Notes: generated by a model not told the origin, from the letters alone. A DNA stretch of 64,000 nucleotides from a virus (IMGVR_UViG_3300027985_000627:1-64000); one strand, 5' to 3'. Shown: positions 25,090-51,011, counted from the first letter of the stretch. Made by a program: numbers and translations.

Positions 25090-25287
25090 ATGTCTGCTAA
25101 AGCTAAATCCGCTGAAACTGACAACGAGTTTGAAAAGCAATTCACTTGCAAAGCTGGTATCGCTGGTCGCAAGCGCGGACTTACTGGACAAAGGTTAATT
25201 GATTTTATTAACAATCATCGGAAGGACCCTGCTGGTCATCGTGGTCGTCGCTTCTACCAATCCTCCACCTCCATCTTGGAGAAATAA
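25090..25287 (+). CDS. Hypothetical protein
   Basis: 65 residues, AAAGGAGCCAAT upstream. Basic, with CKAGIAGRKRGLTGQRLIDF and a G-H-R-G-R-R-F end. Not recognised; immediately upstream of queD. Confidence 0.5.
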   Translation: MSAKAKSAETDNEFEKQFTCKAGIAGRKRGLTGQRLIDFINNHRKDPAGHRGRRFYQSSTSILEK

Positions 25288-25288
25288 A

Positions 25289-25678
25289 GTGCTTACAGTA
25301 ACCAAACGGTTTCATTTCTGCTACGGGCACCATTTGCCTGGTCATCAAGGTAAGTGCAAAAACTTTCATGGACACAACTGTATATTGGAAGTTACCGTGT
25401 ACAAGAAAGGGTCTTCCAAAAAATCTAGCGAAGAAGAGTTTTATTTGGATCAAGCTATGGTTATGGATTTCGGTGATCTTAAAAAAGTTGTAAATCCGTT
25501 GATCGAGAAACTTGATCACCAAAATATTAATGAGGTTCTGCCTGAAAAGTACCTTCCCTCCACCGCAGAAAACATGTGTTTGTGGTTTTTGGATATGTTG
25601 GTGAAAGAGGGTATCGGTGTCGATAAAATTCGAATTTACGAAACCCCAGATAACTGGGCTACGTGGAGTAGTCGATGA
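25289..25678 (+). CDS. queD: 6-carboxy-tetrahydropterin synthase
   Basis: 129 residues from GTG 25289 (TTGGAG upstream). All QueD landmarks are present: FHFCYGHHLPGH with a zinc His, GKCKNFHGHN with catalytic Cys23 and zinc ligands His27/His29, MVMDFGDLK, LDHQNINE, PSTAENM and RIYETPDNWATW. It converts 7,8-dihydroneopterin triphosphate to 6-carboxy-5,6,7,8-tetrahydropterin, step two of 7-deazaguanine synthesis. Overlaps queE by 4 bases. In phages the pathway supplies modified bases for DNA. Confidence 0.9.
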   Translation: MLTVTKRFHFCYGHHLPGHQGKCKNFHGHNCILEVTVYKKGSSKKSSEEEFYLDQAMVMDFGDLKKVVNPLIEKLDHQNINEVLPEKYLPSTAENMCLWFLDMLVKEGIGVDKIRIYETPDNWATWSSR

Positions 25679-26334
25679 TCGTAAATGAAATTTTTCGATC
25701 CATTGACGGGGAAGCCAACTTCTACGGTCAAGGGATTCTCACTACGTTTATCCGACTTCAAGGATGTAACGTTCGGTGTGCTTTTTGCGACACCATGTAT
25801 TCTCAGGGACCGTATGATAAAGATGGCACGTCCATGTCTATCAACGAGATTTACGAAAAGGTTTGCAAACTCGGAAATGACAAGGTTACCATCACTGGTG
25901 GCGAGCCTTTGTTTCAGTTGGACGATGCAGCCACTTTAGCTCGGAAACTTTTGAGAAGTGGGACGAAAGTAACAATTGAAACAAACGGAACGATCATGAT
26001 TCCGAAAATCGGAAACGTTGGTTGGGTCGTTGATTTCAAGTTGCCTTCTTCTGGTGTGACTGATAAAATGTGTATGGAAATTTTTCCTGAACTGGGAGAA
26101 AAGGACATTATTAAGTTTGTAATTTCTGACAAATCGGACTTTGACAAAGCCATGCATGTTATTGCTAGCGGTGCTTTGGGAATTACCAAACCCAGAAACA
26201 AAAGGCCTAGGTTTGCATTCTCTCCCATTCTGCATCGTTTGGAACCAGTCAAATTGTTGAATTGGATGATGATGGCTGATTTGCAGGATTCGTTTCTAAG
26301 TGTTCAGGTACACAAACTTTTGAGCGTCAAATAA
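25675..26334 (+). CDS. queE: 7-carboxy-7-deazaguanine synthase
   Basis: 219 residues, ATGA overlap with queD. FIRLQGCNVRCAFCDTMYS carries CxxxCxxC (Cys31, 35, 38) for the radical SAM 4Fe-4S cluster and is a classic QueE start (EIFRSIDGEANFYG). VTITGGEPLFQ supplies the SAM-binding motif. It rearranges carboxy-tetrahydropterin to 7-carboxy-7-deazaguanine (CDG). No queC follows here, so CDG may be the last free base this phage makes itself. Confidence 0.9.
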   Translation: MIVNEIFRSIDGEANFYGQGILTTFIRLQGCNVRCAFCDTMYSQGPYDKDGTSMSINEIYEKVCKLGNDKVTITGGEPLFQLDDAATLARKLLRSGTKVTIETNGTIMIPKIGNVGWVVDFKLPSSGVTDKMCMEIFPELGEKDIIKFVISDKSDFDKAMHVIASGALGITKPRNKRPRFAFSPILHRLEPVKLLNWMMMADLQDSFLSVQVHKLLSVK

Positions 26335-26409
26335 TTTTCACGGAAATATGGCTAAGGTTCGATATCATAAGAACGAAAAACAATTTAACCACCCTTTGGA
26401 GGGAATGTC

Positions 26410-27027
26410 ATGAGCGATGGAATCAACATGAAGGAACTGAAGCAGGCCGTCACCGAACTTAACGAAGCTGGTGTTCTCGACAAGAAAATCAAGATTGTCG
26501 GCGTTGGCAAGGATGATCTGGCTGCCGCGTTTGAGGAAGCTGTCAACGGTCTGGACGATGAGAAGGCTGAAAAGCTGACCGCTTTCACCATTGATTTCTT
26601 CAACAACAACTTCGGTGAGGATGAGAATACCGAAGAAGGCGGCGTCGAAGCTTCGGATGAAGAAGAAACTGACGGTGAGGAATCTGAAGGTGAGGAAGAG
26701 CCGGAAGAAGAATCTGAGCCGGAAGAAGAAGAAAAGCCGAAGAAGGCTGCGAAGAAAGAAAAGGCCAAGAAGGCTCCCAAGGAAAAGAAAGAGAAGAAGT
26801 CGAAGGAGCCGGTCGAGAAGTCTCGTTACGGACACACTGTCGGCTCTCAAGCGGCCTTGATTGACGACGCTATTTTTGAAGGCGGCACGATGCAGGAGAT
26901 GATGGAAGCTACTGGTCTGTCTAAGGCTCGCATCAAATCCCATATTTACCATCTTGAAAAGAAGAAAGGCATTGTCATCAAGACCACCGGCGAAGGTGAC
27001 AAAACGGTTTTCAAAGCCAAGAAGTAA
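26410..27027 (+). CDS. Acidic-linker protein with C-terminal winged helix
   Basis: 205 residues behind GGAGGGAATGTC. A helical N-terminus (1-70) is followed by an extreme Glu-rich stretch (about 80-115), a Lys-rich stretch (115-140), and a C-terminal winged helix (TMQEMMEATGLSKARIKSHI, YHLEKKKGIVIKT). Probably a DNA-binding regulator or architectural protein. It sits between queE and folE and ends at a strong terminator, so it may control the deazaguanine genes; this is inference. Confidence 0.55.
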   Translation: MSDGINMKELKQAVTELNEAGVLDKKIKIVGVGKDDLAAAFEEAVNGLDDEKAEKLTAFTIDFFNNNFGEDENTEEGGVEASDEEETDGEESEGEEEPEEESEPEEEEKPKKAAKKEKAKKAPKEKKEKKSKEPVEKSRYGHTVGSQAALIDDAIFEGGTMQEMMEATGLSKARIKSHIYHLEKKKGIVIKTTGEGDKTVFKAKK

Positions 27028-27052
27028 CACCAAGTCACATTGAAATGTCATA

Positions 27053-27078
27053 GGGGAGGGTAACACCTCCCCTTTTTT
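27053..27078 (+). terminator. Intrinsic terminator
   Basis: GGGGAGG (27053-27059) and CCTCCCC (27066-27072) form a 7-bp GC-rich stem followed by six T. Placed between the acidic winged-helix gene and folE. Confidence 0.8.
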
Positions 27079-27087
27079 GGAGGAATT

Positions 27088-27663
27088 ATGGACCTTAATA
27101 AAATGGCTGAGGGTTTCAGAACCCTCATGGAAGCTTCTGACCTTGATTTGAATGATCCCAATTTTTGCGGCACTCCTATGCGAGTGGCCAGAATGTTCGA
27201 AAACTTCTTTGAAGGAACAAAACCTGAAGCCGAAGAAGAAATAGAAAAATACCTTTCTGTAACATTCCCTGCTGAATACAAAGAGCTTATCACGTTCCTC
27301 AATATATCTTGTTGGAGCATGTGCCCGCATCATTTTCTTCCTGTGAAGTACAACGTGTCTGTCGGTTATATTCCGAATGAAAGCGTTCTCGGTGCTTCGA
27401 AGATTCCTCGGCTTGTGATCTTGCTTGGAAAAAGACCTGTTCTTCAAGAACAGTTTACGAAGGACATAACGTCTTATATAAATAGATTTGCTAAACCTGC
27501 TGGCGTCATTGCTGTGGTTGAAGGGCGCCACATGTGTATGCAATCACGTGGTGTTAAGACAACTGCAACGATGAACACAGCCTCTTTGTCTGGATGTTTT
27601 GAAACACAGCATGAGACTAGAAAAGAGTTTTATGACCTTATAGCAAGGGGTTCCACGTTATGA
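27088..27663 (+). CDS. folE: GTP cyclohydrolase I
   Basis: 191 residues, TTGGAGGAATT upstream. CWSMCPHHFLP holds zinc ligands Cys79 and His82; GRHMCMQSRGV supplies the second zinc Cys and the conserved RGV; SKIPRLV and QEQFTKDI are also standard. It opens GTP to 7,8-dihydroneopterin triphosphate, the substrate of QueD, so it starts the deazaguanine pathway. Length is slightly under the bacterial norm of about 220. Confidence 0.92.
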   Translation: MDLNKMAEGFRTLMEASDLDLNDPNFCGTPMRVARMFENFFEGTKPEAEEEIEKYLSVTFPAEYKELITFLNISCWSMCPHHFLPVKYNVSVGYIPNESVLGASKIPRLVILLGKRPVLQEQFTKDITSYINRFAKPAGVIAVVEGRHMCMQSRGVKTTATMNTASLSGCFETQHETRKEFYDLIARGSTL

Positions 27664-41451: not shown

Positions 41452-41760
41452 ATGGAACGGGTCGTTGAAACTATTATTGGAAAAATTCCTGATTGTGAGC
41501 CTAGAATCCTTCAATTTGAAGTAAAAAAGAATTGTGAAATTCTGTGTGTTCGCGCAACGGATTATACCGACGTGAACAACTGTGTAGCTTTGGATATCGA
41601 ATGTTCTCCGAATGAAACTGAAAAAGTCGGCAAAAGTATTCGATTTGTGAAGCCGAACGAGCAATTTGCCAAAACAGTCAATGATAAGTTCCTGGGTTTA
41701 GTCCGATCATGGCAAACCATCTATTACGTTTACGAGGTAAGGTGCAAAAATGATTGCTGA
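41452..41760 (+). CDS. Hypothetical protein
   Basis: 102 residues; weak ribosome site (GTGGGG). Mixed strands with several cysteines (IPDCEPR, KNCEILCVRATD, NNCVALDIECS). Overlaps thyX by 11 bases and contains its ribosome site. Not recognised. Confidence 0.5.
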   Translation: MERVVETIIGKIPDCEPRILQFEVKKNCEILCVRATDYTDVNNCVALDIECSPNETEKVGKSIRFVKPNEQFAKTVNDKFLGLVRSWQTIYYVYEVRCKNDC

Positions 41761-43387
41761 TCTGAAAGTTGAATTACTGGCTAAGACTCCGAATATGGAA
41801 GAGTTAGCTTTATCGGCAATGAAACAGTGCTATTCCAATGGATATGCTGGTGACATATACGTTGGTATGCTTATGTGCAAAACTTTCGATCCTAAAATGC
41901 TTCTTTCTGTCATGTCTTCTGGTCATGTCAGCCCCATCGAACATGGATCGTTTACGTTTGCCATTGCTGGTGTTTCAAGAGCATTGACCCATCAACTTGT
42001 TCGGCATCGTCTGGCGTCGTACTGCTTATCTGGTGATTCTAAAATAGTTTCCTACAACTCCGTAAAGAGTAGGAGTTCCCGTGTTCGCACAATACGAGAA
42101 TTGTATGAAATGAGTAAAAACCCCAAAAGGAACGGTCCATTTTCTTTAATACGAATCAGAAGTGTAGATGAAAATGGAATAATAGTTTCAAATAAAATTG
42201 TGAAAGTATTTAAAACAGGGAAAAAACCAGTTTACAAAGTCACCACTGTTAGCGGTAGATGTATAAAGTCTACTAAAGAACACCGATTTAAAACAAAGGA
42301 AGGGTTCGTAAGACTGAGTGAACTATCTGTTGGTGATACTGTAATTGTCAACGGTCTACCTTGTTATAAAAATAAAGAATGGTTAGAAGATCAGTACCTA
42401 AACAAGAACAAAACCAGAGATGAAATCGCTGAATTAGCTGGTGTTAGCAACCCTTGCATTGGAAATTGGGTGAAGAGGTTTAAATTAGTTAAACCTAGAT
42501 CGGCGTACCCCAATAGAAAACCGGGACACGGAGTACCGGGAATGTTTTCTGAAAAAGTGAAAAAGAAATTAAGCGAACAAAAGTTAGGAAGCAAGAACCC
42601 AGCTTGGCTTGGTGATGGTGCTTCTGAAAATGCAGGAAGACTACGTGCCCAAAAAATGTATCCTGCTTGTGAGTGTGAAACTTGTGGAGCCAAAACCAGA
42701 TTTGAACGACACCACATTGATGGAAACACCAAAAATAACGACCGCAGTAACATTTTAGTTTTATGCTCGGCTTGCCATCGTAGTCACCACAATCTGAATG
42801 GCGCTGTTTTAGCCGTACATTCTGATAAAATAGTTTCCATAGAGTACGTGGGAGAAGAAGAAACATACGATTTGGAAGTTGGAAATCCACACAATTACGT
42901 AGCAGATGGATTCGTTGTTCATAATAGCCAACAATCACAACGTTACGTTGACGCTAAAAACGTTAGTTACATCATGCCACCCGAAATCGCCAAAATACCC
43001 GAAGCCAGAAGACTATTCGAATCGTTCATGGACACTTCAGCTTTGGTTTACGAAGACTTGCAGGAAATTCTCATCAAGAACGGTAGAAGAAAAACCGCTA
43101 ATGAAGACGCCAGATTTGTTTTGCCGAATGCTTGTGAAACAAGGATCGTGGTCACAATGAATTGCCGATCTTTGATTCACTTCTTTTCTCTTCGTTGCTG
43201 CAAACGTGCCCAATGGGAAATCCAAGCAATGGCCAACCAGATGCTTGAGATTTGCAAAGCGAATGCTCCTACTATTTTCTCTTCGGCTGGGGCTAATTGT
43301 GATCTTTTAGGATACTGTCCTGAAGGAGAACGATCTTGTGGAAAAAAGAAAACTTTAGCAGAATTACAAGGAGTAAAAAATGATTAG
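41750..43387 (+). CDS. thyX: Flavin-dependent thymidylate synthase precursor with intein
   Basis: 545-residue precursor. Extein 1 (1-91) ends HQLVRHRLASY and extein 2 begins SQQSQRYVDAKN; joined they give the ThyX motif RHR-x7-S-QRY exactly. The intein (residues 92-392) interrupts that motif, so enzyme activity requires splicing. The spliced product is 244 residues, normal for ThyX, with a cysteine-bearing end (LLGYCPEGERSCG). ThyX methylates dUMP to dTMP using folate and FADH2. The phage thus makes dTMP independently of host ThyA. Confidence 0.92.
   Translation: MIADLKVELLAKTPNMEELALSAMKQCYSNGYAGDIYVGMLMCKTFDPKMLLSVMSSGHVSPIEHGSFTFAIAGVSRALTHQLVRHRLASYCLSGDSKIVSYNSVKSRSSRVRTIRELYEMSKNPKRNGPFSLIRIRSVDENGIIVSNKIVKVFKTGKKPVYKVTTVSGRCIKSTKEHRFKTKEGFVRLSELSVGDTVIVNGLPCYKNKEWLEDQYLNKNKTRDEIAELAGVSNPCIGNWVKRFKLVKPRSAYPNRKPGHGVPGMFSEKVKKKLSEQKLGSKNPAWLGDGASENAGRLRAQKMYPACECETCGAKTRFERHHIDGNTKNNDRSNILVLCSACHRSHHNLNGAVLAVHSDKIVSIEYVGEEETYDLEVGNPHNYVADGFVVHNSQQSQRYVDAKNVSYIMPPEIAKIPEARRLFESFMDTSALVYEDLQEILIKNGRRKTANEDARFVLPNACETRIVVTMNCRSLIHFFSLRCCKRAQWEIQAMANQMLEICKANAPTIFSSAGANCDLLGYCPEGERSCGKKKTLAELQGVKND
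42023..42925 (+). mobile_element. Intein with HNH homing endonuclease in thyX
   Basis: 301 codons beginning CLSGDSKIV (splicing Cys1) and ending FVVHN before Ser+1, the canonical C...HN/S junctions. The splicing block B is VSGRCIKSTKEHRF and the C-terminal block is NPHNYVADGFVVHN. Internally there is a helix-turn-helix (KTRDEIAELAGVSNPCIGNW), a NUMOD3-like segment (SEKVKKKLSEQKLGSKNPAW) and an HNH nuclease CETCGAKTRFERHHIDG ... CSACHRSHH. All parts look intact, so splicing and homing may both be active. Confidence 0.9.
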
Positions 43388-46711: not shown

Positions 46712-47758
46712 ATGTTTAAAAAATTGACGCTCAAGAACTTTCAAAACCACACCAAATCAACTCTTCTGTTTCATCCTGGTGTAAATGTCATATCAGGTCC
46801 TTCTGACAACGGTAAATCCTCTATCATTCGAGCTTTGCGACTTGTGCTTGAAAATAAAGCGCAAGGTGATTCATACAGAAAGATTGGTACCGATAAAACT
46901 TCTGTAAAACTGGAATTAGACGGTCACACCATTGAGCGGATTCGATCCAAAAAAGAAAACGAGTACGTACTAGATGGACAATCCTTCAAAGCTGTGCGTT
47001 CATCTGTTCCAGATGAAATTTCTGGAATAATAAATTTATCTCCGTCAAGTCTTCAAAGTCAATTCGATCCGTACTTTCTCCTTTCTGATTCACCTGGTGA
47101 AGTTGCTAAGAAGCTAAATGAGCTTGCCGACATTTCCATAATCGACAAGTCCATCAAAGCTATCAACTCCAAAGTGGCTTCTGCCAAGTCAGAAATCAAG
47201 TTTACCCAGAAAGCTGTAGCCGACATTGAAGATGAATTACTAGCTTTCGATGGATTGAACGAGATTGAAAAGCTGGTAAACGAGATTACTGAGCTTCATG
47301 ATGATACACAAGAGCTTGTCAGAGACATAGCGGATTTACAAGGACAAGTCGATGCCGCTGACGTTTCAGAGAAAAGCATAGCAGAGATCGTTCTTTTTCT
47401 GAAACATGAAACGGAAGTCAATTCTGCCGAGAAGAAACTCGCTGAGGTGACCAATTTAAAGGCTGACATTGAAATGGTTTCTGGTTTCGTCGCTTACTCG
47501 GAACAGTTCAAATTCGACATCAATCGGTTCAACGAAATTTTGAAATTGGAACCTGAAGTAACCAAAGCCGATGAAATGTTCGACCTGTACGATTACAAAC
47601 TAACCGAACTCACACTGCTTCAGAAATCCATACTTATGACAGAAGAAATTACGGATCAACTATCTTTGTGTGATACAACGAATTTGGAAGATGAATTAAA
47701 GGAACTTTGGAAAGAAAACCCTGTTTGTCCTGTTTGTGAACAAAAGGTGAGAGTATGA
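46712..47758 (+). CDS. SbcC/Rad50/gp46 N-terminal half, ending at zinc hook
   Basis: 348 residues from ATG 46712 (TAGGAGGTTC upstream). Starts FKKLTLKNFQNHTKSTLLF and has Walker A ISGPSDNGKSSIIR (about 28-41), the Rad50-type ATPase N-lobe, then a coiled coil from about 150 to 330. It ends ENPVCPVCEQKVRV: the CxxC zinc hook (about 339-342) is six residues from the C-terminus. The second coil, signature motif and Walker B are missing here and are found in the gene at 48911. ATGA overlap with the nuclease gene. Confidence 0.85.
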   Translation: MFKKLTLKNFQNHTKSTLLFHPGVNVISGPSDNGKSSIIRALRLVLENKAQGDSYRKIGTDKTSVKLELDGHTIERIRSKKENEYVLDGQSFKAVRSSVPDEISGIINLSPSSLQSQFDPYFLLSDSPGEVAKKLNELADISIIDKSIKAINSKVASAKSEIKFTQKAVADIEDELLAFDGLNEIEKLVNEITELHDDTQELVRDIADLQGQVDAADVSEKSIAEIVLFLKHETEVNSAEKKLAEVTNLKADIEMVSGFVAYSEQFKFDINRFNEILKLEPEVTKADEMFDLYDYKLTELTLLQKSILMTEEITDQLSLCDTTNLEDELKELWKENPVCPVCEQKVRV

Positions 47759-48681
47759 AATTCCTTTGCACAGGTGACTGGCACATCAGGAAAAACAACC
47801 CTGTAAACCGAACGGACGTTTATTATGATGGTTTATTTAGCAAGCTCCGATTCATCTACGACCTCGCACTTGACACCATTGACTGCTGGGGAATACTGCA
47901 ACCAGGAGACTTCTTCGACCGACATGACCTGCCCTACGGAGTTGTGGAGAGGACGATCCGTCATCATTCAGATACAGAACGAATCACACCTGTCAAACTC
48001 GCAGCCTGCTTCGGTCAACATGACCAGCGTTTCCACACCTCGGATAAAACAAACACACCACTTGGTGTGTTTATGGCAGGAACAACAAGCTCTTTCATCC
48101 TTGAAAAAGAGCCGTTGGAGATTCCTAGATTTGAAGAATCGCCGATTCATATCTACGGGTCTTCATGGGGAGAAGATATTCCCGAAATCCAAGATTCGAG
48201 CGCATTTAACATCCTGGTCACGCACCGGATGGTCACGAAGAACGGCCCGCTTTGGTCCGAACAAGAGCATTACGAAGAAGCGGACATACTGCTTAAAAAA
48301 CTCGATTTCAACCTCATAGTATGCGGAGACAACCACAATGGATTCGTACATCGTTATCGTTCTCGGTATCTCATTAATTGTGGTTCTCTTATGCGCAGCA
48401 CACTTGACCAAATGGATCATCGTCCATTTGTTGTCTTATTTGATACAGAAACGAAAAAACCAGAAACCGTCTATATTCCCGTAATACCTATCCATGAAGT
48501 CATGAACATGGAAAAAGTCGAAAAAGAGAAAGAAAAAAATGAGCAAATGGATTTGTTCATATCCAAATTGAAAATGAGTAATGATCGGAGTTTAGACTTC
48601 AAATCCAATTTGCAAAATTTCTTGGATGAAAACAAAATTTCACCTTCTGTTAAACAGATCATTTCGGAGGTCATGTCATGA
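47755..48681 (+). CDS. SbcD/Mre11/gp47-type nuclease
   Basis: 308 residues. Phosphoesterase motifs in order: LCTGDWHIRK, LQPGDFFDRHD, ACFGQHDQRF (normally GNHD/E; Gln replaces Asn), ILVTHRMV and VCGDNHNGF. The metal-binding Asp and His residues are kept. With its ATPase partner it should trim DNA ends and hairpins and feed recombination-dependent replication. Encoded between the two halves of the ATPase. Confidence 0.85.
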   Translation: MKFLCTGDWHIRKNNPVNRTDVYYDGLFSKLRFIYDLALDTIDCWGILQPGDFFDRHDLPYGVVERTIRHHSDTERITPVKLAACFGQHDQRFHTSDKTNTPLGVFMAGTTSSFILEKEPLEIPRFEESPIHIYGSSWGEDIPEIQDSSAFNILVTHRMVTKNGPLWSEQEHYEEADILLKKLDFNLIVCGDNHNGFVHRYRSRYLINCGSLMRSTLDQMDHRPFVVLFDTETKKPETVYIPVIPIHEVMNMEKVEKEKEKNEQMDLFISKLKMSNDRSLDFKSNLQNFLDENKISPSVKQIISEVMS

Positions 48682-48917
48682 AAGATGCTGCAAAAAGAAT
48701 TTCAGCTTTGAAAGATAAAATCGAAGAAGCAAAAAACAAGAAGGCTAGGCTAGAAGGACGACTTGAATCAGCGATGTCTGATTTGAAAAAAGAATTTGGA
48801 ATAAAATCCTTGAAAGAAGCCAAAGTTACTTTGGAAAAGTGGAGAAAAGACTTAGGCATTCAAGAAAAAGAACTTGAAGAAAAACTGGATGAAATAGAGG
48901 AGAAATTCGGATGGTAA
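48678..48917 (+). CDS. Coiled-coil protein between nuclease and ATPase C-half
   Basis: 79 residues, all charged helix (AKRISALKDKIEEAKNKKAR, KEAKVTLEKWRKDLGIQEKE), ATGA overlap with the nuclease gene. It could be a detached piece of Rad50-type coil or a clip joining the two ATPase halves. No cysteines. Confidence 0.6.
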   Translation: MKDAAKRISALKDKIEEAKNKKARLEGRLESAMSDLKKEFGIKSLKEAKVTLEKWRKDLGIQEKELEEKLDEIEEKFGW

Positions 48918-49513
48918 AAGATCGGATAGCAGAACTCAAAAAGACTCTAGCTAGTGCGAAAGCTACGGTTAAAGTTCTCAAAGACAAAAAGAAAGCTACG
49001 CTGAAAAAGATTTCCGACTTAGAAAATACTCTCAGTGACACGGAGAAAGCAAGAGAAATCATTTTGCTTGTTGGTCGTGACACACAGCAAATGTTAGAAA
49101 TAAAAGTCAGTGGTTTGGTTACGCTTGCTTTGGAAGCTGTCTTTCCTGATCCATATGAGTTTAAAGTAGTGTTTGAAGAACGCAGAAATTCCACTGAAGC
49201 CGATTTATTCTTTTGCAAGAACGACGATTTGTTCAAACCTCTGGATTCTTCTGGAGGAGGAGCTATCGACATTGCTTCATTTGCTCTACGTGTGTCTGAT
49301 TGGAAGCTACGTGGAACGAGAAACGTTTTGATTATGGACGAACCGTTTCGAAATCTTAGCGCCGATTTGCAACCCAAAGCCAGTGAAATGCTTCATCGGA
49401 TAAGTTCTGACCTTGGGTTGCAAATTATTATGGTTTCGCATCAAGAGGGTGTTAATGAGGAATGTGATCGGCTGTTCTCTGTTAAGAACGGGGAAACTAC
49501 TCAGGTTTGGTAA
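48911..49513 (+). CDS. SbcC/Rad50/gp46 C-terminal half
   Basis: 200 residues. A short coil (IAELKKTLASAKATVKVLKD) leads into the C-lobe: signature motif LDSSGGGAIDIASFALRVS, Walker B NVLIMDEPFRNLS, and H-loop MVSHQEGV. These complement the Walker A protein at 46712. No CxxC is present. Starts inside the previous gene's end (GAGGAG upstream). Its stop touches the stop of the opposing gene. Confidence 0.85.
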   Translation: MVKDRIAELKKTLASAKATVKVLKDKKKATLKKISDLENTLSDTEKAREIILLVGRDTQQMLEIKVSGLVTLALEAVFPDPYEFKVVFEERRNSTEADLFFCKNDDLFKPLDSSGGGAIDIASFALRVSDWKLRGTRNVLIMDEPFRNLSADLQPKASEMLHRISSDLGLQIIMVSHQEGVNEECDRLFSVKNGETTQVW

Positions 49514-50020
49514 TTACTTAGGGACAGCTTTGTAAGCTGCTTCGAGGACTTTAAGAAGACCATTGGTGTTATGGTATAAATAAAGGAAATAAAGAAAAGA
49601 CGGTACGCATATAACAGAAATGAACCACAAAATCTTTTTAACGGTTTTAAGATCATCTCCAAGTTTTTTAACGTCACCAAAAGCAGCAAGTTTCGCATCA
49701 AGAGCTTCAATGGCTTCCGTCAAAACAGTTTTAGCATTATCCTCATCCGCTTCCATCGTTGTAGCATGTCTACCAGAGCATGTTTCATCATGTTCTTCAA
49801 TCGTTTTCAAAAACTCTTCCCGCATATTACCAACTGAATCTCGGACAAAATCTTTTAAAGATTGCCGAGTGGGCTCCGCTTTAGCCAAATCTGCAATACG
49901 ATCAACTTGAACTGCCATACTCGAAACGTTATCTTGAACACCCTTCATGCCGTCTAAAACTTGCACAAGCATGGATTTGAACATATCGAGAAGGATTTTT
50001 ACGAATTCATTCTCTCCCAT
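49514..50020 (-). CDS. Membrane-anchored coiled-coil protein coupled to REC-PAS
   Basis: 168 residues from the start codon at 50020; AGGAGG lies 9 bases upstream, inside the end of the REC-PAS gene, and the two overlap by 14 bases. A long soluble helical part (about 1-125; NVSSMAVQVDRIADLAKAEP, TEAIEALDAKLAAFGDVKKL) precedes a single transmembrane segment ILWFISVICVPSFLYFLYLY and a 20-residue tail. The tight coupling suggests a complex with the REC-PAS protein. Function unknown. The stop abuts the + strand SbcC C-half gene. Confidence 0.65.
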   Translation of the reverse strand: MGENEFVKILLDMFKSMLVQVLDGMKGVQDNVSSMAVQVDRIADLAKAEPTRQSLKDFVRDSVGNMREEFLKTIEEHDETCSGRHATTMEADEDNAKTVLTEAIEALDAKLAAFGDVKKLGDDLKTVKKILWFISVICVPSFLYFLYLYHNTNGLLKVLEAAYKAVPK

Positions 50021-51011
50021 CTCGTAAAGCCTCCTGAATATCATTCCAGTTTTTTAAAACGCTGTTAGAAGTGCCTTCATTGGCTTTTTTAGCTGCTATC
50101 ATTTCTTCGGCTTCATCTATGGTTTTTTCCAAAGCCGCAATTTTTGTCTTTGCGTAGTCTTCCGATATCTTAATTTCTTTTTTAACGTTTGACAAGAATT
50201 TCTTCATGGAGTCAGCAACATCCATGAACTGGTGGTAAAATTGCGTCTTGTCTTCACCAACACTTTGAATTTCGAGAAGGTCTCCGTTGTCATCGAATAG
50301 CCCAACTTTTCTCCAAGCTACCCAGTATTTGTTACGATGACGAAATTCCGATCCATAAACCCAAGGTGTTTTGGGTGTCAACTTGTTTATATTTTTCCTG
50401 GCTAATTCGCGATACTCAGGGTCAATGAAATCAAACATATTTAAACCAACAAGGTTTTCGTATGTTGTGTCGAACGCATCGCATATGGTCTTGTTGACAA
50501 AGGTGATCGTTCCATCAGGCTTGTGTCTGCAAATCCATTCAGGTGAAATGTTGACTACAGATTCGTACAAGTTTTTGGCTTTACGAAGCTCATTGTTCAT
50601 TTCAGTGAGGGTAGATAAGGTCTGTTCTAATTCTACCTGATTTTTGCACCTAACAATGGCTGATTTAATGTTGTGCGCCAATGATTTAAATTCCCAAGTT
50701 TTCTTAAAAAAATTATCAGCTCCTTCTTCTACAGCTTGCAGACCAATTTCTTCTTCATCCTCTCCAGAAAGAATTATAACAGGAGTATGCGGACAGACCG
50801 ATTTGATTATATGAAGAGTTTCTATTCCTCGGGAATCAGGAAGATTCAGGTCCAAAAGAACCGCATCAAAGCAACCTTCGCATAAAAGAACTTCTGCCCT
50901 GTGGATACTTTCCACAGGTGTAACGGAAAAGTCAGAAGACTTTTCTAAAATCCTTTTGATAACAGTCTGAAAACAAGTGTCATCTTCAACGTGTAAAATA
51001 GTGTAACACAT
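50007..51011 (-). CDS. Response-regulator receiver plus PAS protein
   Basis: 334 residues. Residues 1-120 are a complete receiver domain: ILHVEDDTCF (Asp10/11), AVLLDLNLPDSRG (phospho-acceptor Asp54), PVIILSGEDE (Ser82) and GADNFFKKT (Lys104). A coiled linker follows, then a PAS domain (about 146-260): YESVVNISPEWICRHKPDG, FVNKTICDAF, VGLNMFDFIDPEYR, FRHRNKYWVAWRK. The C-terminal 70 residues are coiled coil. No DNA-binding or kinase output domain. REC-PAS proteins are bacterial signalling parts; one in a phage late operon is unusual. Confidence 0.85.
   Translation of the reverse strand: MCYTILHVEDDTCFQTVIKRILEKSSDFSVTPVESIHRAEVLLCEGCFDAVLLDLNLPDSRGIETLHIIKSVCPHTPVIILSGEDEEEIGLQAVEEGADNFFKKTWEFKSLAHNIKSAIVRCKNQVELEQTLSTLTEMNNELRKAKNLYESVVNISPEWICRHKPDGTITFVNKTICDAFDTTYENLVGLNMFDFIDPEYRELARKNINKLTPKTPWVYGSEFRHRNKYWVAWRKVGLFDDNGDLLEIQSVGEDKTQFYHQFMDVADSMKKFLSNVKKEIKISEDYAKTKIAALEKTIDEAEEMIAAKKANEGTSNSVLKNWNDIQEALRDGRE

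Follow-up and report, generated by a model that had tools for sequence, protein, structure and literature searches.

Is a homologue of Rad50/SbcC, the motor of DNA-break repair, that is encoded in two separate genes, parted exactly at the zinc hook, a genuine architecture, and what would the small helical protein encoded between the two halves contribute to it? The question is raised by four genes, each overlapping the next, on the plus strand at positions 46712-49513 of IMGVR_UViG_3300027985_000627:1-64000, a stretch of 64,000 nucleotides (the window) that is part of an IMG/VR virus record of 87,318 bases. The first gene (46712-47758, 348 amino acids (aa)) encodes the N-terminal half of a Rad50/SbcC/gp46 protein, here called N, with the N-lobe, a long helical arm and a C-terminal CPVC hook. 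It is followed by M (47755-48681, 308 aa), a calcineurin-like phosphoesterase of the Mre11/SbcD/gp47 type, by S (48678-48917, 79 aa), a predicted helix-turn-helix protein from a conserved family and the putative third piece of the split Rad50, and by C (48911-49513, 200 aa), the C-terminal half, in which a short arm of about 50 aa precedes the C-lobe. The N/M and M/S joins are both ATGA, while S and C overlap by 7 bases. The original prediction, made from the sequence alone, had given this four-gene description, and its coordinates, motifs and joins were right in all details checked.

The proposed Rad50/SbcC homology of both halves is borne out by motifs and family matches alike. N carries the Walker A motif GPSDNGKS (residues 29-36, 46796-46819, plus strand), of which G29, G34 and K35 are invariant in 74 aligned sequences, as are Q117 of the Q-loop and both cysteines of the zinc-hook motif CPVC (residues 339-342, 47726-47737, plus strand). 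Its C-terminus reads ...NPVCPVCEQKVRV before the stop codon, six residues beyond CPVC. The ATP-binding cassette (ABC) signature SSGGG (49247-49261), the Walker B motif VLIMDEP (49325-49345) and the H-loop histidine H177 (49439-49441), part of SHQ, are all found in C on the same strand, and G117, D143 and H177 are invariant in 12 aligned C-halves. The motifs of the ATP site are hence divided over the two proteins, and neither half is complete. N matches AAA_23 (E 4e-13) and PHROG 16465 'exonuclease' (3e-36), and the N-terminal part (4-108) of the NCBIfam Rad50 model PRK03918 aligns with it; C matches PHROG 15167 'ATPase' (4e-24) and Rad50 C-lobes of known structure (5e-5), and aligns with the C-terminal part of NCBIfam Rad50_Sulf (665-865 of 872). 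An AlphaFold2 model of N (74 sequences; mean predicted local distance difference test (pLDDT) 89.8, predicted template modelling score (pTM) 0.48) consists of a lobe and four arm helices; its lobe finds Rad50, SMC and RecF heads at VIA Z 11-15, with Rad50 at the top in Foldseek. In the 87-kb virus record AAA_23 has no match besides this N-half, and PF13558 (SbcC Walker B) has none.

The original prediction had asked for a survey of other phages for a split gp46. Scans of IMG/VR with a small alignment of C gave 41 loci, and those with an alignment of N gave 160 relatives, of which the best 80 were taken; a scan of bacterial and archaeal genomes added 13 loci, mostly on contigs of metagenome bins. 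A single N sequence as query gave no matches against viral contigs, so that alignment queries were required. Hidden Markov models (HMMs) for the four proteins, applied to every one of the open reading frames (ORFs) in these loci, left 124 distinct loci. The complete four-gene set is present in 83 of them, always in the order N-M-S-C and hence with M between N and S, though often with intervening genes, and S and C overlap or lie at most 30 nucleotides apart in 59 of 87. The split at the hook is natural as well: as in the N-half of this phage, 107 of the 108 complete N-half ORFs from distinct loci have a CxxC at the arm tip, at most 20 residues from the C-terminus, and zinc binding is predicted from this motif. 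In the 124 loci N and C are always separate, and none of the ORFs joins any two of the four parts. The refuting case named in the original prediction, a single-gene version in near relatives, was looked for in the loci scanned, and no close relative has a single-chain N-hook-C protein there. A hook-terminal split combined with a fixed gene order is far beyond chance, and the split Rad50 is a real architecture and not an error.

The system is found in the annotated phages vB_BboS-125 (Bacillus bogoriensis), Magritte (Microbacterium), Tunturi_5 (Tunturiibacter) and Mvi-JY20 (Microcystis), and an N-half is also present in one uncultured phage of 485 kb. In the record of Magritte (L014) the C-half sits at the opposite end from the N-half. 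S is retained on plasmids too: one of Alkaliphilus has the order M-N-S-C, and one of Bacillus velezensis has N-S-C followed by M, so that N, S and C are adjacent in both and arranged as in the ancestral polypeptide.

Judged from these features, the four genes very probably encode a split Mre11-Rad50 (gp47-gp46) complex, in which N and C would make up one head and S would be a piece of the arm. As neither half alone could bind and hydrolyse ATP in the way of ABC proteins, a head must be built from both, and N and C would associate non-covalently into a single ABC ATPase head. Such a head is feasible, since the N and C pieces of Pyrococcus furiosus Rad50 form one head as separate chains (A and B) in 1F2T/1F2U, and human Rad50, made as an N-half with FKBP replacing the hook and a separate C-half, purifies as a complex whose dimerised form activates ATM (PMC3642328). 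Two N subunits would be bridged by zinc at their tips through the C-terminal CxxC, as the invariance of the hook suggests. Even when placed at a free C-terminus, the hook could link two N proteins by a Cys4-zinc site, because it is mainly a dimerisation device, replaceable by an SMC hinge (PMC6969161). M would bind the head or the arm base and supply the nuclease, as expected from its family. With moderate confidence, S and the short arm of C would replace the descending C-arm of the single-chain protein and lie against the base-proximal part of the N-arm; where the N-arm extends beyond their reach by one or more units of about 47 residues, as in this phage and most relatives, these units might pair with the other N-arm, pair with more S, or stay single. 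The complex may serve in recombination-dependent replication of the phage, like gp46/gp47, a role that fits the gene content of the window, in which a domain scan detected a recombinase of the RecA type and a helicase of the DEAD/ResIII type.

Several observations weigh against this reading. S lies 3 kb from C in two loci (L055 and L056), and C lies 109 kb from N and S in Tunturi_5, while the N-half of Magritte (L014:2839-3891) is the only complete one without CxxC. The metal motifs of M are GQHD and GD.H, and not GNHD and GH.H, in 74 of 107 M proteins, including that of this phage, which has GQHD and GDNH. S has no detectable homology to the C-arms of single-chain proteins (6%) nor to their N-arms (3%). 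Finally, the median distance from the N-terminus to the hook is about 289, 339 and 386 residues in three length classes, while the medians for S and C together are 279, 283 and 292; the excess of N over S+C is 12, 54.5 and 89 aa in the three classes.

What, then, is S? That it belongs to the system, as was proposed, is upheld, for it is a conserved family beside C and keeps a gene of its own even next to the C-N fusions. The loci hold 85 distinct S sequences, mostly of 76-90 aa, which align nearly without gaps and share a nearly invariant glycine and leucine and a middle part that reads 'LK.EF...S..EA'. AlphaFold2 (58 sequences; pLDDT 96.9, pTM 0.64) predicts two helices, residues 2-40 and 45-77, with a four-residue break. 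None of the libraries scanned has a name for the family, and PHROG and PADLOC scans of S gave no consistent family. Against the PDB, the S profile finds marginal coil matches only, including the Rad50 hook construct 6zff (E 0.05), which I did not use as evidence, and its profile match to the base of the N-arm (81%) is possibly a coil effect. As homology between S and the C-arms is undetectable, it is length and gene order that point to the distal C-arm as the counterpart of S. S and C of this phage together have 279 aa and the part of T4 gp46 from hook to end has 269 aa; the shortest N-halves (about 289 residues to the hook) are likewise near the corresponding 287 residues of gp46. Since these shortest forms come so close to T4 gp46, S may well replace the distal C-arm of single-chain Rad50. 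Their dimensions also support a sequence of events in which the extra units of the N-arm would have arisen after S took the place of the distal C-arm. The original suggestion that S completes the longer coil of N consequently holds in part: the match in length to the C-side of gp46 speaks for it, but the excess of the N-arm, in this phage about one unit of 47 aa, is matched by neither S nor C.

This excess leads to the most serious alternative. The N-arm (residues 142-335, 47135-47716, plus strand) is predicted to consist of helices 142-178, 182-231, 233-278 and 280-335, and it is built of units of about 47 residues. From Q-loop to hook, the arms cluster at about 173, 213-224 and 268 residues, with a few longer, and alignments between the classes show that these differ by one internal insertion of 41-50 residues. 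The N-arm profile is self-similar at lags of 47 and 94 (self-comparison E 7e-12), which is better support than the Rayleigh period of about 48 in the arm lengths, confounded as the latter is by relatedness. In single-chain phage Rad50s the lengths before and after the hook are closely correlated (Spearman 0.98, n=8), the N side exceeding the C side by 11-29 aa (57 in allotria). For the split proteins, the correlation of N-to-hook with S+C is 0.50 (Spearman), with a shift of about 13 aa in S+C against about 97 in N, partly owing to uncertain start codons of C; an earlier measure of arm length, based on regular expressions, showed none. S could therefore be a separate subunit along the N-arm, possibly with one copy per 47-residue unit in a three-helix bundle of an N helix and an S hairpin, so that the length of the N-arm sets the number of S copies. 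The stepwise arm classes would be explained by such an arrangement, as would the constant length of S (79-85 aa), its two predicted helices with a tight break, and the fact that it is never fused to N or C, even where these are fused to each other. However, S is always beside C in the gene order, the match of S+C to the C-side of gp46 requires a single S, and the arm-length classes may be a matter of inheritance within lineages, and I consider this arrangement possible but rather doubtful. A tentative view of wider scope, to which I give slightly more credit while still doubting it, is that of a new architecture within the SMC/Rad50 class, with an asymmetric arm: a rod of N only that grew in steps of about 47 residues, accompanied by free S whose copy number perhaps follows the rod, with an open tip that would have allowed the re-fusion of C to N on megaplasmids.

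Such a C-N fusion exists. A contig of Acidithiobacillus sulfurivorans (L151) encodes one protein of about 692 aa with, in this order, a C-lobe, an N-lobe, an arm and CPFC; by its motif order, this is a circularly permuted Rad50 whose predicted termini lie at the hook. Relatives of the L151 protein were found by tblastn on 21 large plasmid records, the hosts being Variovorax, Bosea, Methylorubrum, Rhizobium, Acidiphilium, Pseudomonas, Vibrio, Alteromonas and Aeromonas, and each of the six plasmid proteins examined (546-772 aa) repeats this order and ends in a CxxC. In L151 and five of these plasmids, a small helical gene of 97-134 aa lies just upstream of the C-N gene; the upstream gene in Alteromonas has 176 aa and was left out of the comparison with S. 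In hhalign these S-like genes match phage S (94%, E 1e-7, score 41.7, against 18.5 for a reversed control and at most 28.3 for other coil slices). Downstream of the C-N gene lies M, sometimes degenerate. In an N-lobe tree the C-N proteins form one clade (99/99) within the split phage proteins and apart from the single-chain phage Rad50s, with the reservation that the single-chain lobe fragments are short, inner support is moderate, and the split protein of Mvi-JY20 falls beside the single-chain group on a very long branch. As the gene order S-C|N-M is N-M|S-C cyclically permuted, a split ancestor whose cassettes had changed places is the most likely source of the C-N fusion. The C-N form was not found in viral contigs in two scans and is so far a plasmid or chromosome form; among 274 genomes searched around Acidithiobacillus, its full version was seen only in the genome of L151.

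M matches Metallophos (3e-8). The canonical motifs GNHD/E and GHxH are present in the M of the Bacillus phage and in several plasmid M proteins, and given the unusual metal motifs of the major phage clade, nuclease activity of M is not certain there. On three plasmids, of Vibrio, Alteromonas and Pseudomonas Leaf58 (L159, L160 and L162), the M downstream of the C-N gene is retained but without its catalytic motifs, and this loss suggests that the complex might have a non-nuclease role in these hosts. In vB_BboS-125, it is a gene with an AP2 domain, and not M, that lies between N and S, and a phosphoesterase ORF of 326 aa (L013:4924-5904; HMM E 1e-22) is present without RefSeq annotation.

The remaining explanations of the locus fare worse. 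N and C could be independent proteins, for instance C a regulatory ATPase lobe and N a zinc-bridged tether of DNA, as the distance between the halves in Tunturi_5 and their filing as separate families in databases might imply. However, the absence of a complete ATP site from either half, the natural C-N fusions and the strict co-occurrence of the two make this improbable. It is less probable still that N and C are joined into a single-chain Rad50 by a split intein, trans-splicing or frameshifting. A true intein does occur in the same genome, in ThyX, but a family scan found no intein domain in N or C, each half has its own start and stop codon with M in between, the C-terminus of N comes only a few residues after the hook in 107 of 108 complete N-halves, and elsewhere the order is permuted and the distances are large. 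That the layout is an assembly error or a decaying pseudogene, as the C-half in two ORFs of the relative L008 (4980-5615; a frameshift error or decay) could hint, has next to no probability, because the same layout, with conserved motifs and intact overlapping ORFs, is shared by several complete genomes and by more than 100 contigs of independent origin, occurring both in phages of Bacillus and of cyanobacteria and on two named plasmids, and the original dismissal of a sequencing break stands.

Two other assignments were considered. An SMC protein would have a globular hinge, for which there is no room beside the CxxC tail, N ending at most 20 residues past the hook and S being 79 aa in two helices. 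For a defence system, the PADLOC matches of N are many but are to general ABC ATPases, and a role in defence is not favoured because the genes stand in a replication and recombination context.

Elsewhere in the window, the intein-interrupted thymidylate synthase gene thyX lies at 41750-43387 on the plus strand (Pfam Thy1 7e-61; intein splicing domain 3e-18), and a gene at 50007-51011 on the minus strand of this phage genome encodes a receiver domain of the response-regulator type with a PAS domain after it (Pfam E 2e-20 and 1e-7). Genes at 25199-27663 (plus strand) of the 6-pyruvoyl tetrahydropterin synthase/QueD type, the radical SAM/QueE type and for GTP cyclohydrolase I were recognised by domain scan; from their families they are likely to serve 7-deazaguanine synthesis, possibly for DNA modification.

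In all textbook models of Rad50 and SMC proteins, ATP-driven changes are passed along a pair of arms that belong to the same chain and meet at the hook or hinge. Here is a natural system in which the link between the arms is cut and the hook kept, a third arm protein is added, one side grows in units, and the lobes are re-joined in swapped order in one lineage. It offers a natural test of whether continuity and equal length of the arms are needed for DNA tethering and nuclease control, its separable parts are ready for structural work, and it reveals what certain genes without annotation, in many phage genomes and on megaplasmids, are components of.

The split and permuted architecture is apparently unreported and a variant of the Mre11-Rad50 kind. 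The open-access literature searched, which does not extend to subscription journals, has no account of a Rad50/SbcC that is naturally split, encoded in separate genes or circularly permuted. PHROG 16465 and PHROG 15167, which match N and C, are catalogued as unrelated, S is without a family, and PHROG has no description of the split system. Archaeal and eukaryotic Rad50 and bacterial SbcC have the same ATPase lobes and CxxC hook, but in these a single chain runs up one arm, through the hook and back down the antiparallel other, whereas here this connection is absent and the sides of the arm are unequal. As N and C are not one chain linked through the hook, I regard the system as a split variant and not as an ordinary Rad50 member. 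The engineered split Rad50 (PMC3642328) and the P. furiosus 1F2T/1F2U structures likewise have separate N and C polypeptides that form a working head, but they are laboratory constructs with no S, their hook being replaced by FKBP or absent. Mre11-Rad50 fusions, known from Mimivirus among others (PMC3175470), show the same gene pair rearranged in viruses, but with M fused to Rad50, which is the opposite event; among these, the fusions of Anaerostipes and Bacillus phage 0305phi8-36 were reported to be without one P-loop NTPase segment (PMC3175470). A close likeness is also seen to T4 gp46/gp47 and T5 D13/D12, with the same lobes, hook motif, neighbouring phosphoesterase gene and recombination and replication context, and with an N-to-hook length in gp46 of 287 against about 289 in the shortest split N-halves. 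Isolates carry single-chain gp46 far more often than the split form, with 3,797 phage records that match T4 gp46; yet gp46 and D13 are each one chain, whereas the system described here has three chains, an N-arm in units of 47 aa, an S subunit and, in its major clade, an M with GQHD and GD.H.
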